From: Paenibacillus sp. 37
GTDB lineage: Bacteria; Bacillota; Bacilli; Paenibacillales; Paenibacillaceae
Reading direction: 5' to 3'
DNA length: 64,000 nt
Assembly: GCF_008386395.1 (NCBI RefSeq)
Contig: NZ_CP043761.1
Coordinates: forward strand, 186,001 to 250,000
Under the pieces are notes generated by a model. That model had not been told where the DNA came from. It ran no database searches and saw nothing but the letters and a program-made list of their open reading frames with translations. This document shows positions 4,579 through 59,212 of the stretch, in pieces. Within the stretch, counting starts at the first letter, position 1. Every line of letters starts with the position of its first letter. The position numbers and the translations under genes are program-made.

Positions 4579-4689
4579 GCAGAAATTGTCTGAAGAAGCG
4601 TTAGCGTTCGCCTTTATCACATGATTCCAACTTATGAAAATAAGTTCAAAAGGAATCAGGGGATAACAGCGATCAGAGGACAATTCTGC
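4579..4689 (+). repeat. Dispersed structured repeat, copy A (gpmI-eno gap)
   Basis: One of four related elements in the window. Outer arms GCAGAAATTGTC and GACAATTCTGC pair. Inside lies the family core, GAAGCG..AGCG..CGCC on the left and GGATAACAGCG on the right. The middle stem TTATCACATGATTCC pairs imperfectly with GGAATCAGGGGATAA and is capped by an AACTTA/TAAGTT hairpin with a TGAAAA loop. It ends 74 bases before the eno start. A TATAAT at 4729-4734 without a clear -35 lies between it and eno. Whether it acts as RNA or DNA is unknown. Confidence 0.7.
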
Positions 4690-4763
4690 TAACGTAGTGG
4701 AAAAGGGAAAACACAAGTGGTCCTAATTTATAATAAATTTAAATTTAAAGGAGATTATCACAA

Positions 4764-6050
4764 ATGACTATTATTTCTGACGTGTACGCTCGCGAAGTCC
4801 TCGACTCCCGCGGTAACCCTACAGTAGAAGTTGAAGTATACCTGGAGTCCGGCGCAATCGGACGCGCAATCGTTCCATCTGGTGCATCCACTGGTGCCCA
4901 CGAAGCCGTTGAGCTTCGCGATGGTGACAAATCCCGTTACCTCGGTAAAGGCGTTCTGCAAGCTGTTAAAAACGTAAACGAAACAATCGCTCCAGAAGTT
5001 ATCGGTATGGATGCATTGGATCAACTGGGTATCGACAAATTGATGATCACTTTGGATGGTACGCCAAACAAAGGTAAACTGGGTGCTAACGCAATCCTGG
5101 CTGTATCCATGGCAGTAGCTCGCGCAGCTGCTGACGCTCTGGACCTGCCATTGTACGTTTACCTGGGCGGATTCAACGCTAAAGCATTGCCAGTTCCAAT
5201 GATGAACATCATCAACGGTGGTGAGCATGCGGACAACAACATCGACGTTCAAGAGTTCATGGTTCTTCCAGTTGGAGCACCAAGCTTCAAAGAAGCTCTT
5301 CGCGTAGGTGCAGAGATCTTCCACAACTTGAAATCCGTATTGAGCTCAAAAGGCTTGAACACAGCTGTAGGTGACGAAGGTGGTTTCGCACCGAACCTTG
5401 GTTCGAACGAAGAAGCAATCACTACAATCATCGAAGCAATTGAAAAAGCTGGTTACAAACCAGGCGTTGACGTATTCCTGGGTATGGACGTTGCTTCCAC
5501 TGAGTTCTACAAAGATGGTAAGTACACACTTGCTGGTGAAGGTAAATCTTACACTTCCGCTGAGTATGTTGACCTTCTGGCTTCATGGGTTGAGAAATAC
5601 CCAATCATCACAATCGAAGACGGTATGTCCGAAGATGACTGGGATGGTTGGAAATTGCTCACTGAGAAATTGGGAGACAAAGTACAACTCGTTGGTGATG
5701 ACCTGTTCGTAACAAACACTGAGCGTCTGGGCAGAGGTATCGACGAAGGTATCGGTAACTCCATCCTGATCAAAGTTAACCAAATCGGTACATTGACTGA
5801 AACATTTGATGCAATCGAAATGGCTAAACGTGCAGGATACACAGCTGTAATCTCTCACCGTTCCGGTGAATCCGAAGACAGCACAATTGCTGATATCGCT
5901 GTTGCAACTAACGCTGGTCAAATCAAAACGGGTGCTCCTTCCCGTACAGATCGTATCGCGAAGTACAACCAATTGCTCCGCATTGAGGATCAACTGGGTG
6001 AACTGGCTCAATACAATGGTCTTAAAGGATTCTACAACCTTAAAAAATAA
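4764..6050 (+). CDS. eno: Enolase
   Basis: Dehydrates 2-phosphoglycerate to phosphoenolpyruvate; also a structural RNA-degradosome partner in Bacillus relatives (family knowledge). 428 residues, full length. GDDLFVTN, the catalytic-lysine segment [14 protein letters not shown] and the [17 protein letters not shown] signature are all intact. The start at 4764 follows AAAGGAG at 4748-4754. A structured repeat lies between it and gpmI, so eno may be expressed separately from the upstream genes. Confidence 0.98.
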
Positions 6051-6074
6051 GCTGGATATCCAGCTTTTACGGGC

Positions 6075-6103
6075 AAGCCGGGTAACCGGCTTGTCTTTTT
6101 TTG
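6075..6103 (+). terminator. Terminator after eno
   Basis: CAAGCCGG pairs with CCGGCTTG around a four-base loop, followed by TCTTTTTTT. A second perfect palindrome, AAGCTGGATATCCAGCTT, overlaps the end of eno just upstream (about 6049-6066). Confidence 0.85.
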
Positions 6104-6167
6104 CAACGAAGTAATGGTATAACGTAAGGATCACGCAGATGGTGAAATTTAGGGCATTGTATAAACT

Positions 6168-6203
6168 GTACTACTTGTAGTACAACCATAGCTATGTTAC
6201 AAT
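6168..6203 (+). promoter_or_regulatory. secG promoter with palindrome over the -35
   Basis: TTGTAG (6175-6180), 17 bases, TACAAT (6198-6203): a good housekeeping promoter 57 bases before secG. A 16-base near-perfect palindrome, GTACTACTTGTAGTAC (6168-6183), covers the -35 and could be an operator for an unidentified regulator. Confidence 0.55.
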
Positions 6204-6259
6204 TAAAGTAACTGTTTTTATGGTGAGATGTATGCCCACATGGGTAGGAGGTGGAAAGA

Positions 6260-6493
6260 ATGGATATTGCTTTGAAATTGCTGCTCGTTGTTTTCTCGAT
6301 CGGTCTAATCACTGTAGTATTGCTGCAGCACGGGAAAAGCGCTGGTTTGGCGGGTGCCATCTCCGGTGGTGCGGAACATCTTTTCGGTAAAACGAAAGCG
6401 CGCGGATTGGATCTCTTCCTGCAACGTGCAACGGTGGTACTGGGTGCAGGATTTATGATTTTGTCTATTGTTGTTACGGTGGTTTCCAAGTAA
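6260..6493 (+). CDS. secG: Preprotein translocase subunit SecG
   Basis: Small non-essential partner of SecYE in the cytoplasmic membrane. 77 residues with two hydrophobic helices (about 3-22 and 54-75) and the conserved loop [19 protein letters not shown] between them. The ATG at 6260 follows AGGAGGTG (6246-6253). The GTG at 6251 lies inside that ribosome site and is rejected. The enolase-SecG-RNase R-SmpB-tmRNA order is common in Firmicutes. Confidence 0.93.
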
Positions 6494-57336: not shown

Positions 57337-57441
57337 GCTTGGAACTGTAGGAGCGTTAGCGACCGCCTTTGTCTGCGGATTTCAACCGCCAGAGCGGTCA
57401 ATAAAAGAAATTTGCAGACAACAGCGGCCGAAAGTCCAAGC
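57337..57441 (+). repeat. Dispersed structured repeat, copy C
   Basis: Outer arms GCTTGGA and TCCAAGC; core GAGCGTTAGCGACCGCC and GACAACAGCGGCC; middle stem TTGTCTGCGGATTT with AAATTTGCAGACAA; apical hairpin ACCGC/GCGGT with a CAGA loop. It is the most diverged copy in sequence, yet all stems are kept. It ends 80 bases before the oxidoreductase gene. Confidence 0.75.
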
Positions 57442-57520
57442 ATTCACCGTCGTTACGTTAAGCCGAATATTATAATTTCTTGAGTCAATTCATATGAAAA
57501 CGATGGAGGAATCAGCTACT

Positions 57521-58579
57521 ATGTCCAAATTGAAAGTCGCCGTCATCGGTGCCGGATCCATATCCGATTGCCATTTGCAAGCCTACGCCAGTAACCCGGA
57601 CGTTGAAATATACGCTATCTGCGACCTGAATGCAGAACGTGCCGCAGAAGTCGCGAAGCAATATAATGCACCTCATGTGTTTACCGACTACAAGGAACTG
57701 CTCGCACTGCCTGAGATTCATTCCGTCAGCATCTGTACATGGAACGACTCCCATGCTGAGATTAGCATTGCTGCTCTGGACGCAGGCAAAAACGTGTTAT
57801 GTGAGAAACCACTCTGCCAAACGGTGGAGGATGCCCTCGAGGTAGAGAAGGCCGTTCATCGTAGCGGAAAACTGCTGCAAGTTGGTTTTGTTCGCCGCTA
57901 TAGTGACAATGCACAGATTCTGAAGAAATTTATCGACGAGGGTGAACTGGGCGAGATCTATTATGCCAAAGCCTCCAGTCTGCGTCGTCTGGGCAATCCG
58001 GGTGGCTGGTTCTCGGATGTCAACCGCTCAGGCGGCGGTCCACTCATCGATATCGGGGTGCATGTAATCGATATTTGCTGGTATCTGATGGGCAGACCGA
58101 AGGTGAAATCCGTCTCCGCCAACGTGTCCAACCGATTGGGGAACCGCTCGAACATTAACAATCTGTCGTTCTACAAAGCGGCAGACTATGACGCGGAACA
58201 GAACACTGTTGAGGATATGGCAAATGCCCTGATTCGTTTCGAAAATGGCGCGAGCCTGCTCGTGGATGTAAGTTTCACGCTCCATGCCAAAGCAGATGAG
58301 ACTTCGGTCAAACTCTATGGCGACAAAGGCGGTGCCGAGCTGGAACCGGAAATTTCGATTATTGGCGAGAAATTCAATACCATTTTGAACATGACGCCAC
58401 AGGTAGATTTCAAATCATTCGATTTTATGGGCTCATTTCGCAATGAAATCAACCATTTTATCGACAGCACACAGGGCCGCAAAGAAACACTTAGTCCCGT
58501 CGAGGATGGCGTTGAAGTGATGAAAATGCTCTGCGCCATCTACGAATCGGCACGCCAAGGCCGCGAAATCACGCTGTAA
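57521..58579 (+). CDS. Gfo/Idh/MocA-family oxidoreductase
   Basis: 352 residues. Rossmann start KLKVAVIGAGSISDCHLQAY, the conserved catalytic-lysine motif KNVLCEKPLC, and the C-terminal substrate domain with SSLRRLGNPGGWFSDVNRSGGGPLIDIGVH. It oxidises or reduces sugars or inositols with NAD(P). The ATG at 57521 follows GGAGGA ten bases upstream; an earlier in-frame ATG at 57494 is less likely. It is separated from the isomerase by repeat copy C. Confidence 0.92.
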   Translation: MSKLKVAVIGAGSISDCHLQAYASNPDVEIYAICDLNAERAAEVAKQYNAPHVFTDYKELLALPEIHSVSICTWNDSHAEISIAALDAGKNVLCEKPLCQTVEDALEVEKAVHRSGKLLQVGFVRRYSDNAQILKKFIDEGELGEIYYAKASSLRRLGNPGGWFSDVNRSGGGPLIDIGVHVIDICWYLMGRPKVKSVSANVSNRLGNRSNINNLSFYKAADYDAEQNTVEDMANALIRFENGASLLVDVSFTLHAKADETSVKLYGDKGGAELEPEISIIGEKFNTILNMTPQVDFKSFDFMGSFRNEINHFIDSTQGRKETLSPVEDGVEVMKMLCAIYESARQGREITL

Positions 58580-58654
58580 AAGGATCATTGCATGGCGTTG
58601 TTAGGCTACGTTGATACTTTACTACTCCCGTGGCATTAAAAGTTATGAGTACTT

Positions 58655-58736
58655 CGCTCCCTTTCAATGAAAAGCTCCGCTCAGGGCGGGCGTGGATGCG
58701 TCCTCTCCGCTCGCCGTTGGAGCAGAGTAGGGAGCG
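58655..58736 (+). repeat. Intergenic long hairpin
   Basis: CGCTCCCT (58655-58662) pairs with AGGGAGCG (58729-58736), enclosing a further GCTCC/GGAGC pair and GC-rich inner arms. It may belong to another dispersed repeat class; only this copy is in the window. Confidence 0.5.
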
Positions 58737-58753
58737 AGCGCTAACGAATCTGA

Positions 58754-58936
58754 GGCGTCTTATTCAAGGATTCGAAGCGCTAGCAGAAATCTAAGGAACC
58801 TGACACACGCTATATCAGAATAAACAGCAGTTTACAGCGTTTTTATAAGCTAATTTCGGGAAATAACGTGTCTGATGTTCCTTACAATTCAAAAAGAGGA
58901 TCAAAAGGCTGAATAAGACGCCCTGTGTTCCTTAGA
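58754..58936 (+). repeat. Nested inverted repeats with alternative pairing
   Basis: GGCGTCTTATTCA (58754-58766) pairs perfectly with 58910-58922. Inside, TAAGGAACCTGACACACG (58792-58809) pairs imperfectly with CGTGTCTGATGTTCCTTA (58867-58884). The same left arm, as TCTAAGGAAC (58790-58799), also pairs perfectly with GTTCCTTAGA (58927-58936). No coding frame is supported. The rest of the 695-base gap (58580-59274) holds this element, the hairpin at 58655 and repeat copy D. Confidence 0.6.
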
Positions 58937-59093
58937 AAATTTCCTACCCCTCCGCGAAGGTCAGCCAGTTTATATTCCTCTAGAGGCAAGAGGAGGAAGT
59001 AAGGGATTCATAGGAATTGAAGATCGCACCGCAATCGAAATACAAAGTTACTACGCCCCTTAACAGTTAAACTAGCGTTTACGCCAAAACGGA

Positions 59094-59212
59094 GAGTGCA
59101 GAACCAATCTGAAGAAGCGAAGCGCTCGCCTTTATCACCGGATTTCCAACAATTATAAAGTGAAATCAAAGAAATCCGGGGATAACAGCGATCGAAAGAT
59201 GGTACTGCACTC
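59094..59212 (+). repeat. Dispersed structured repeat, copy D
   Basis: Outer arms GAGTGCAGAACCAATCT and AGATGGTACTGCACTC; core GAAGCGAAGCGCTCGCC and GATAACAGCGATC; middle stem TTATCACCGGATTT with AAATCCGGGGATAA. It is closest to copy A. It ends 63 bases before the second GH29 gene. Confidence 0.78.

Follow-up and report, generated by a model that had tools for sequence, protein, structure and literature searches.

BOX repeats of Streptococcus pneumoniae are described in PMC3049150 as small, interspersed, intergenic elements with extensive predicted RNA structure, which are transcribed as 5' and 3' extensions of operons, show slow recent insertion and are thought to affect the genes co-transcribed with them. 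The bcr1-bcr3 repeats of the Bacillus cereus group are 100-400 bp long, resemble miniature inverted-repeat transposable elements (MITEs) and often lie in untranslated regions or operon spacers, with up to 130 copies of bcr1 (PMC3446304, PMC6542083). Their mobility has been tied to TTTAT repeats and bcr1 is described as confined to one species group (PMC3446304, PMC6542083), and the presence of bcr3 correlates with the mRNA decay rate (PMC3446304). Through the MITE-like Correia (CE/NEMIS) and ERIC elements, mRNAs can acquire sites cut by RNase III or RNase E (PMC3049150), and REP elements are 20-40 bp palindromes with a GTAG or CGTC tag (PMC3733652, PMC2817692). Here we describe a family of structured repeats of the Paenibacillales, four copies of which lie ahead of unrelated genes in a 64,000-nucleotide stretch of the Paenibacillus sp. 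37 genome (contig NZ_CP043761.1, positions 186,001 to 250,000 of the forward strand; hereafter the window).

The Paenibacillales repeat was compared with these systems by description. Like BOX, it is a small intergenic interspersed repeat with predicted RNA structure; unlike BOX as described there, its core spans an order and its stems have been rewritten with compensation. Like bcr, it is MITE-like and frequent in leaders and spacers, but no TTTAT repeat was found at its insertion sites (flank composition and direct-repeat test, 46 copies) and, unlike bcr1, it spans many genera. High copy number and a folded single strand are shared with REP elements, whereas the repeat is 130-190 nt long (129 model positions plus ends), carries terminal inverted repeats in about half of its copies and shows no fixed GTAG or CGTC at the ends of the sp. 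37 copies, which places it outside the REP definition. Correia and ERIC elements are a precedent, from other bacteria, for a processing role; cleavage of the Paenibacillales repeat is putative.

The repeat appears to work like BOX and bcr and agrees in part with the definition of a MITE: one subfamily has terminal inverted repeats, and presence/absence polymorphism occurs between close genomes. Its junction core is kept across much of an order. It has no Rfam match: against Rfam 15 (4227 families) the window returned only tmRNA at the gathering threshold, and one copy searched at E up to 5 gave a single chance-level match on the opposite strand. No paper evidently about the repeat was found in the literature on Paenibacillus repeats and structured RNAs, which is not proof of its absence from print. 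The original prediction had offered a cis-acting RNA, a processing site or a REP/MITE-like element tolerated as leader DNA; covariation, biased orientation and signs of mobility indicate that the family combines a structured element with a mobile repeat, so that the prediction is supported in part. With somewhat more confidence than doubt, we favor a BOX- or bcr-like mobile repeat built on an older structured RNA, which would act in cis in mRNA leaders and spacers. The fold, its covariation, the distribution, the presence/absence polymorphism and the bias in orientation and position were established by computation.

A three-way junction with compensatory changes in its stems

The structured part of the repeat, ~130 nt long, folds into a three-way junction whose unpaired center is conserved. 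Two outer pairs, AC/GU (swapped for GU/AC in subfamily B), enclose a 3x3 internal loop (GNA/GNA), inside which two further pairs lead to stem P2. This stem pairs although its sequence differs widely among subfamilies. The 5' strand of the junction is UGRAGAA and the 3' strand AUCGGAA, and the junction holds a mini-hairpin, GC-GNA-GC or GC-GNNA-GC, in which G-C is replaced by A-U in 4 of 19 copies. Past the junction lie stem P5 (CGC/GCG), a UUU/AAC loop, the long variable stem P6 and a variable apical hairpin. P5 covaries (C-G to U-A in 5 of 63 rows), the non-canonical position next to it changes from C.A to A.G in L126 and L074, and sequences of more distant species read, for example, UAUC/GAUA or GGUGC/GCACC. 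The GNA/GNA loop, its middle base variable, is intact in 143 of 153 sp. 37 rows (one copy included twice) and in 16/23 and 6/13 rows of two sets of relatives; its unpaired bases are conserved on one strand only. A likeness of GGATAACAG to 23S rRNA, like a reading of the junction as a k-turn or as exoribonuclease-resistant, is conjectural.

A nested hairpin of ~38 nt is present in 53 of 149 sp. 37 copies, judged by length, at two positions, and L273 carries two. In 10 of 16 pairs compared, the sp. 37 copy has it and the orthologue in a close species, G023, does not; insert-free G023 copies are over-represented in this comparison because the best-scoring loci were taken first.

Nineteen copies, the four of the window included, were aligned with MAFFT; the structure was written on this alignment and tested, and a covariance model was built from it. 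Pair cells changed on both sides numbered 71, against 22 in shuffles and at most 17 in slid versions. In 63 distinct rows fitted to the model there were 541, against 146 and at most 115, and standard pairs made up 89.7% of pair cells. Covariation, one of the checks proposed with the original prediction, is strong by these counts. The predicted fold of each window copy also beats 200 of 200 dinucleotide shuffles.

In relatives, G-U outnumbers A-C 31:6 (21 distinct of 23 rows, recounted on the distinct ones) and 21:4 (13 rows) in model-fitted alignments, the pattern that a need for one strand to fold as RNA would produce. In distant relatives, then, it is on one strand that the copies retain the fold.

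Distribution, ends and mobility

A search of the sp. 37 genome with GGGGATAACAGCGATC, allowing at most 2 mismatches, found 163 places, against 1 for the reversed control. At least 149 copies are present: 149 of the 150 candidates scored, out of 2608, fit the model. A second count scored 150 of 2486 candidates, and these copy numbers are lower bounds; two further copies lie at L059:3084-3215 and L273:2032-2229. All 24 genomes of a genus sample, sp. 37 included, carry copies (from 1 to at least 88), as do 3 of 15 other genomes of the order in the first sample. A wider model found the expected further copies in relatives: 199 of 246 genomes of the order carry the family, representing 32 of 46 genera, with at most 14 candidates per genome scored under stricter filters. 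The class-wide search, with at most 11 scored per genome under similarly strict filters, gave matches in 28 of 299 genomes, a sample not broken down by order; 27 belong to the window's own family and the one beyond it is weak (E 7.6e-5). Among the gpmI regions of named species (78 of 80 collected loci searched), eight match: those of Paenibacillus amylolyticus, P. glucanolyticus, P. lautus, P. rigui, P. elgii, P. cremeus, P. foliorum and a Saccharibacillus.

Over its full length, a sp. 37 copy shares 70-98% identity with the most similar other copy in the genome (147 copies). Dispersed pairs reach 97% at most, so the burst is not very recent. At L120 (5824270-5824938 of the genome), three copies in tandem share 97.5-98.3% identity, a sign that copies have also been amplified locally and not only dispersed.

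Low-copy relatives hold sense copies ahead of alaS, tex, acyl-CoA dehydrogenase, methyltransferase and prepilin peptidase genes. Four places are common to two relatives, G005 and G017, the fourth being ahead of an amino-acid ABC transporter gene (read from the N-terminus). In L032, L033 and L044, from these two relatives, the 3' ends of some copies are tandemly repeated downstream of the element, for example ATCCGCATTCGAAGCA several times. A copy in another family lies ahead of a tpiA-like start and a Saccharibacillus copy between pgk and tpiA; more than one gene junction of the glycolytic cluster has thus received the element. At the eno site the element is present in 18 of 30 same-genus genomes, the other 12 having a gap of 50-109 nt. 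Among the 18, P2 occurs in two versions, both pairing, and 17 share one form of P6 that was not seen in the other sp. 37 copies read. Double-changed pair cells at this site number 20, against 5.3 in shuffles and at most 7 in slid versions.

Terminal inverted repeats, approximately CTATATAAnTTGAACTAAnCATTTACAC and GTGTAAATATTCTTTAGTTCAAnTTATATAG, bound 77 of the 149 sp. 37 copies, as judged by at least 36 of 57 letters matching two end consensuses; since the other copies fall short of this, the hallmark of MITEs belongs to one subfamily only. No clear target duplication was found in 46 copies with both ends: the best offset, of 3 nt, occurred in 4 of 46 against 0.8 expected and was picked among many offsets. 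A TA duplication would be indistinguishable because the ends read TATATA. Left-end matches in the genome also number 77, 54 at listed copies and 23 elsewhere. Around 14 of these 23, no distant right end was found within ~3 kb on each side (transposase proteins were not searched for); the nine outside that check have three mismatches each. Solo ends and internally deleted copies occur.

The flanks of G023 are 92-98% identical to those of sp. 37 in most loci compared. At one clean presence/absence site, G023 has a 191-nt insert, bounded by inverted repeats with at most 1 nt duplicated, where sp. 37 reads straight through; two genomes were compared, which does not prove the direction, insertion or loss. 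Of two other sites tried, one lacks the element in sp. 37 but is rearranged and one matched on one flank only. The empty site beside an insert in a close species indicates that the family is or was mobile. The suspicion of a mobile element is upheld by the inverted repeats, the relics and this site; no target duplication stood out.

Placement, constraint and possible role

All 149 listed copies lie between genes, as called by a simple script. Co-directional gaps hold 93 sense and 29 antisense copies (p 5e-9), divergent gaps 16 and convergent gaps 11; the uniform orientation seen in the window extends to the genome as a bias but is not exclusive. The 3' end is 34-81 nt ahead of the start codon in 69 of 109 copies with a same-strand downstream gene. 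In co-directional gaps this holds for 61 of 93 sense copies and, measured from the 5' end, for 6 of 29 antisense ones, which lie instead near the stop codon of the preceding gene (median 43 nt). Position and orientation fit insertions that are tolerated or useful in transcribed leaders with the folded strand sense and the ribosome site free.

Orientation also follows replication. With it point 114 of 149 copies, and the ratio of sense to antisense is 86:18 where the gene is on the leading strand and 7:11 where it is on the lagging strand (p 0.00025; one tandem array supplies three of the 11). The sign of the GC skew switches between ~3.30 and 3.97 Mb, in agreement with the assumed midpoint. 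The 114 copies that point with replication, and the intergenic placement, would suit a chromosome element acting as DNA, an orientation signal or protein site whose RNA fold is incidental. Such an element is very improbable given the one-strand conservation of unpaired bases, the very uneven copy number in one genus and the tie between 3' ends and start codons.

The genes downstream are varied and share no pathway (82 read by N-terminus, ten by Pfam search); purS, purC, sdhB, gnd, carA, efp and araA are among them, by N-terminus reading without a family search. The conserved junction and internal loops, the strong covariation and the leader position would be at home in a ligand- or protein-responsive cis-regulator of a regulon, riboswitch-like or an antitermination element. 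This is improbable: against it stand the unrelated downstream genes and the lack, for each of the three copies in window 46900-60000, of any terminator-like site on the + strand ahead of the downstream gene, so that neither coherent targets nor an expression platform characterizes the repeat. Nor is any riboswitch class known to approach the copy number of the repeat, which is far higher.

Constraint was examined between sp. 37 and G023. A first set of 30 G023 loci contained 17 with both flanks in sp. 37 loci; 16 entered the hairpin comparison (one sp. 37 partner is a relic), 13 the conservation comparison and 15 that of one-sided changes, in which the three copies of L290/L059 were counted apart. 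A larger set held 40 orthologous pairs among 85 G023 copies, of which 39 were counted. When both sides of a pair changed at these 39 sites, pairing was kept 37 times and lost 9 times. In the inverted-repeat class, double changes kept pairing 14 times and broke it 3 times, and one-sided changes 25 and 31 times, so some structural constraint or copy replacement remains. At L059:2001-3545 (~0.842 Mb of the genome) and L290, three copies, one antisense, surround purC-like and purS-like genes; the same three were found in G023, with all compared pairs identical in two of them.

Several results weigh against the favored reading. One-sided stem changes at the 39 sites kept pairing 42 times and broke it 68 times (7 and 15 in the smaller set), and some double changes are whole outer arms swapped between subfamilies, which makes replacement by another copy part of the picture. 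Conservation of the core does not clearly exceed that of its intergenic surroundings: 0.931 versus 0.947 and 0.893 versus 0.901 at the 39 sites, 0.958 versus 0.942 in the 13 pairs and 0.880 versus 0.82-0.84 at the eno site. The ratio of G-U to A-C in sp. 37, 193:84 overall, falls to 99:84 (p 0.30) without the one consensus G-U pair, and at the eno site it is 11:4 (p 0.12, not significant). The paired fraction is equal by orientation, 0.938 in antisense and 0.934 in sense copies (148 of 149 listed copies, one with shifted limits left out, and five apical pairs omitted), and four named species (L194, L196, L197, L215) carry an antisense copy between gapA and pgk. The sp. 37 copies show little constraint.

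Three candidate arguments were given up or weakened on these grounds. Wobble pairs were rejected as proof of RNA-level selection in sp. 37 after the control for the consensus pair. Strong purifying selection on its copies is unsupported, since cores are not clearly more conserved and one-sided changes mostly break pairs. A function confined to sense leaders is weakened by the equally intact antisense copies and the gapA-pgk copy, which mean that sense mRNA cannot be the whole story.

The strongest rival is a wholly selfish MITE- or REP-like element, in which the fold is only the single-stranded substrate of a transposase acting in trans, the sense bias and the spacing to start codons stem from target choice (such as replication forks) and the purging of harmful insertions, and the host gains nothing. 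We regard it as possible but clearly less probable than a repeat acting in cis. The inverted repeats, relics, deleted copies and presence/absence site would all follow from it, as would copy numbers that range, within one genus, from 1 in some species to at least 150 in others, an orientation that tracks replication as well as genes, the intact antisense folds and the weak constraint in sp. 37. It accounts less well for compensating changes at fixed sites, for the places shared by distant low-copy relatives and for their one-strand wobble tolerance, and no partner transposase appeared in the places examined (around 14 of 23 stray left ends, without a search for transposase proteins).

The history of a mobile repeat on an older structured RNA may be pictured as follows. 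An old structured RNA core would have been present in low-copy relatives as a handful of copies ahead of housekeeping genes, and in the clade of the window a subfamily with terminal inverted repeats would have spread to ~150 or more intergenic sites, probably driven by a putative mobilizing enzyme; the order of events is a proposal. Many copies would now be decaying, and others would have stayed at their sites and accumulated compensating changes. In leaders and spacers the copies, mostly sense and ending ~60 nt ahead of the start codon, would leave the ribosome site free, and their folded RNA, if transcribed, could act in cis to protect or insulate the message that follows, either as a stable 5' end or as a boundary for processing. 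By analogy with mRNA decay at bcr3 and the RNase sites of Correia and ERIC elements, an effect in cis on mRNA processing or stability is most likely the function of the repeat, and a processing or stabilizing role is plausible. A bolder version is rather doubtful: an order-wide class of cis-acting Paenibacillales RNA, kept as a folded leader at a few housekeeping genes of low-copy species, would have gained terminal repeats, itself turned mobile and been broadcast to ~150 or more loci, perhaps via single-stranded DNA at the replication fork, as a stability or processing module ahead of unrelated genes.

The copies in the window and their meaning

The four repeat copies of the original prediction are real: direct reading confirmed each position, and the only full-length covariance-model matches in the window are these four, all on the + strand as claimed, at 97-126 bits (Table 1). 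All four are among the 19 training sequences, so this is recovery by the model and not discovery. On the minus strand the same palindromes give four weaker echoes, at 15-29 bits. The element proved larger than first drawn, with the GNA/GNA loop and more outer pairs outside the earlier limits. The right core described as conserved, GGATAACAGCG, is present in three of the four copies, the one at 57337 having GACAACAGCGG instead. The nested hairpin makes the copy at 47047 longer. Distances to the start codon, given as 44-80 bases from the narrower limits, are 64, 34, 66 and 56 nt from the model ends of the copies at 4569, 47037, 57325 and 59088. Pfam gives enolase, LtrA, Gfo/Idh/MocA and alpha-L-fucosidase for the downstream genes, in line with the predicted eno, LtrA-like, Gfo/Idh and GH29.

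Table 1. Repeat copies, ends, insert and probable relics in the window
Feature	Position	Strand	Evidence
Full copy between gpmI (stop 4520) and eno (ATG 4764)	4569..4699	+	117 bits with covariance model R1, training sequence; z -5.9
Full copy, subfamily A with nested hairpin, ahead of LtrA gene (ATG 47238)	47037..47203	+	114 bits, training sequence; z -4.6 for 47047-47194
Divergent full copy ahead of Gfo/Idh/MocA gene (ATG 57521)	57325..57454	+	97 bits, training sequence; z -6.9
Full copy ahead of alpha-L-fucosidase gene (ATG 59275)	59088..59218	+	126 bits, training sequence; z -6.2
Left terminal inverted repeat of 47037 copy	47015..47033	+	Pattern match, 2 mismatches; C1:233015-233033
Right end of 47037 copy, GTGTAAAT	~47207-47214		Read from sequence
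Nested hairpin insert, ~38 nt, inside 47037 copy	47081..47118	+	Read from sequence; compared with G023 orthologues
Probable left-end relic just 5' of ATG at 42508	42451..42478	+	82% identity over 28 nt with 47030-47057
Probable right-half relic at stop codon of open reading frame ending 51336	51334..51395	+	68% identity over 62 nt with right half of 47037 copy; no model match

Other features were observed in the window. The 3' end of a tmRNA gene (11181-11545) recurs downstream at 12394-12456, with 92% identity to 11453-11515, and three copies of a 72-nt stretch that includes a terminator-like hairpin start at 11545, 12490 and 13879 (within 11181-13950). The arrangement looks like the att sites of elements integrated at a tmRNA gene. 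Within 45584-45935, TTATCTTTAAATTAAGATAT and its complement form a perfect inverted repeat of 20 nt around a small open reading frame; the two arms may be paired operators or the ends of a small mobile element. The minus strand at 58600-58850, which lies between the fourth copy and the Gfo/Idh gene, is rich in AGCG/GAGCGGAG (for example GATTCGTTAGCGCTCGCT); this stretch has no model match.

The covariance model labels an unnamed feature ahead of many Paenibacillus genes. Even as a purely selfish element, the repeat would be a large family that has no Rfam entry, showed no partner enzyme where one was looked for and gains or loses a nested hairpin. If it does act in cis, a single order would let one RNA fold be traced from conserved copies in a few leaders to a mobile burst across a whole genome, and how transposable repeats become cis-regulatory RNA would be directly testable. 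The family would then offer a natural case for how a jumping sequence joins gene control.

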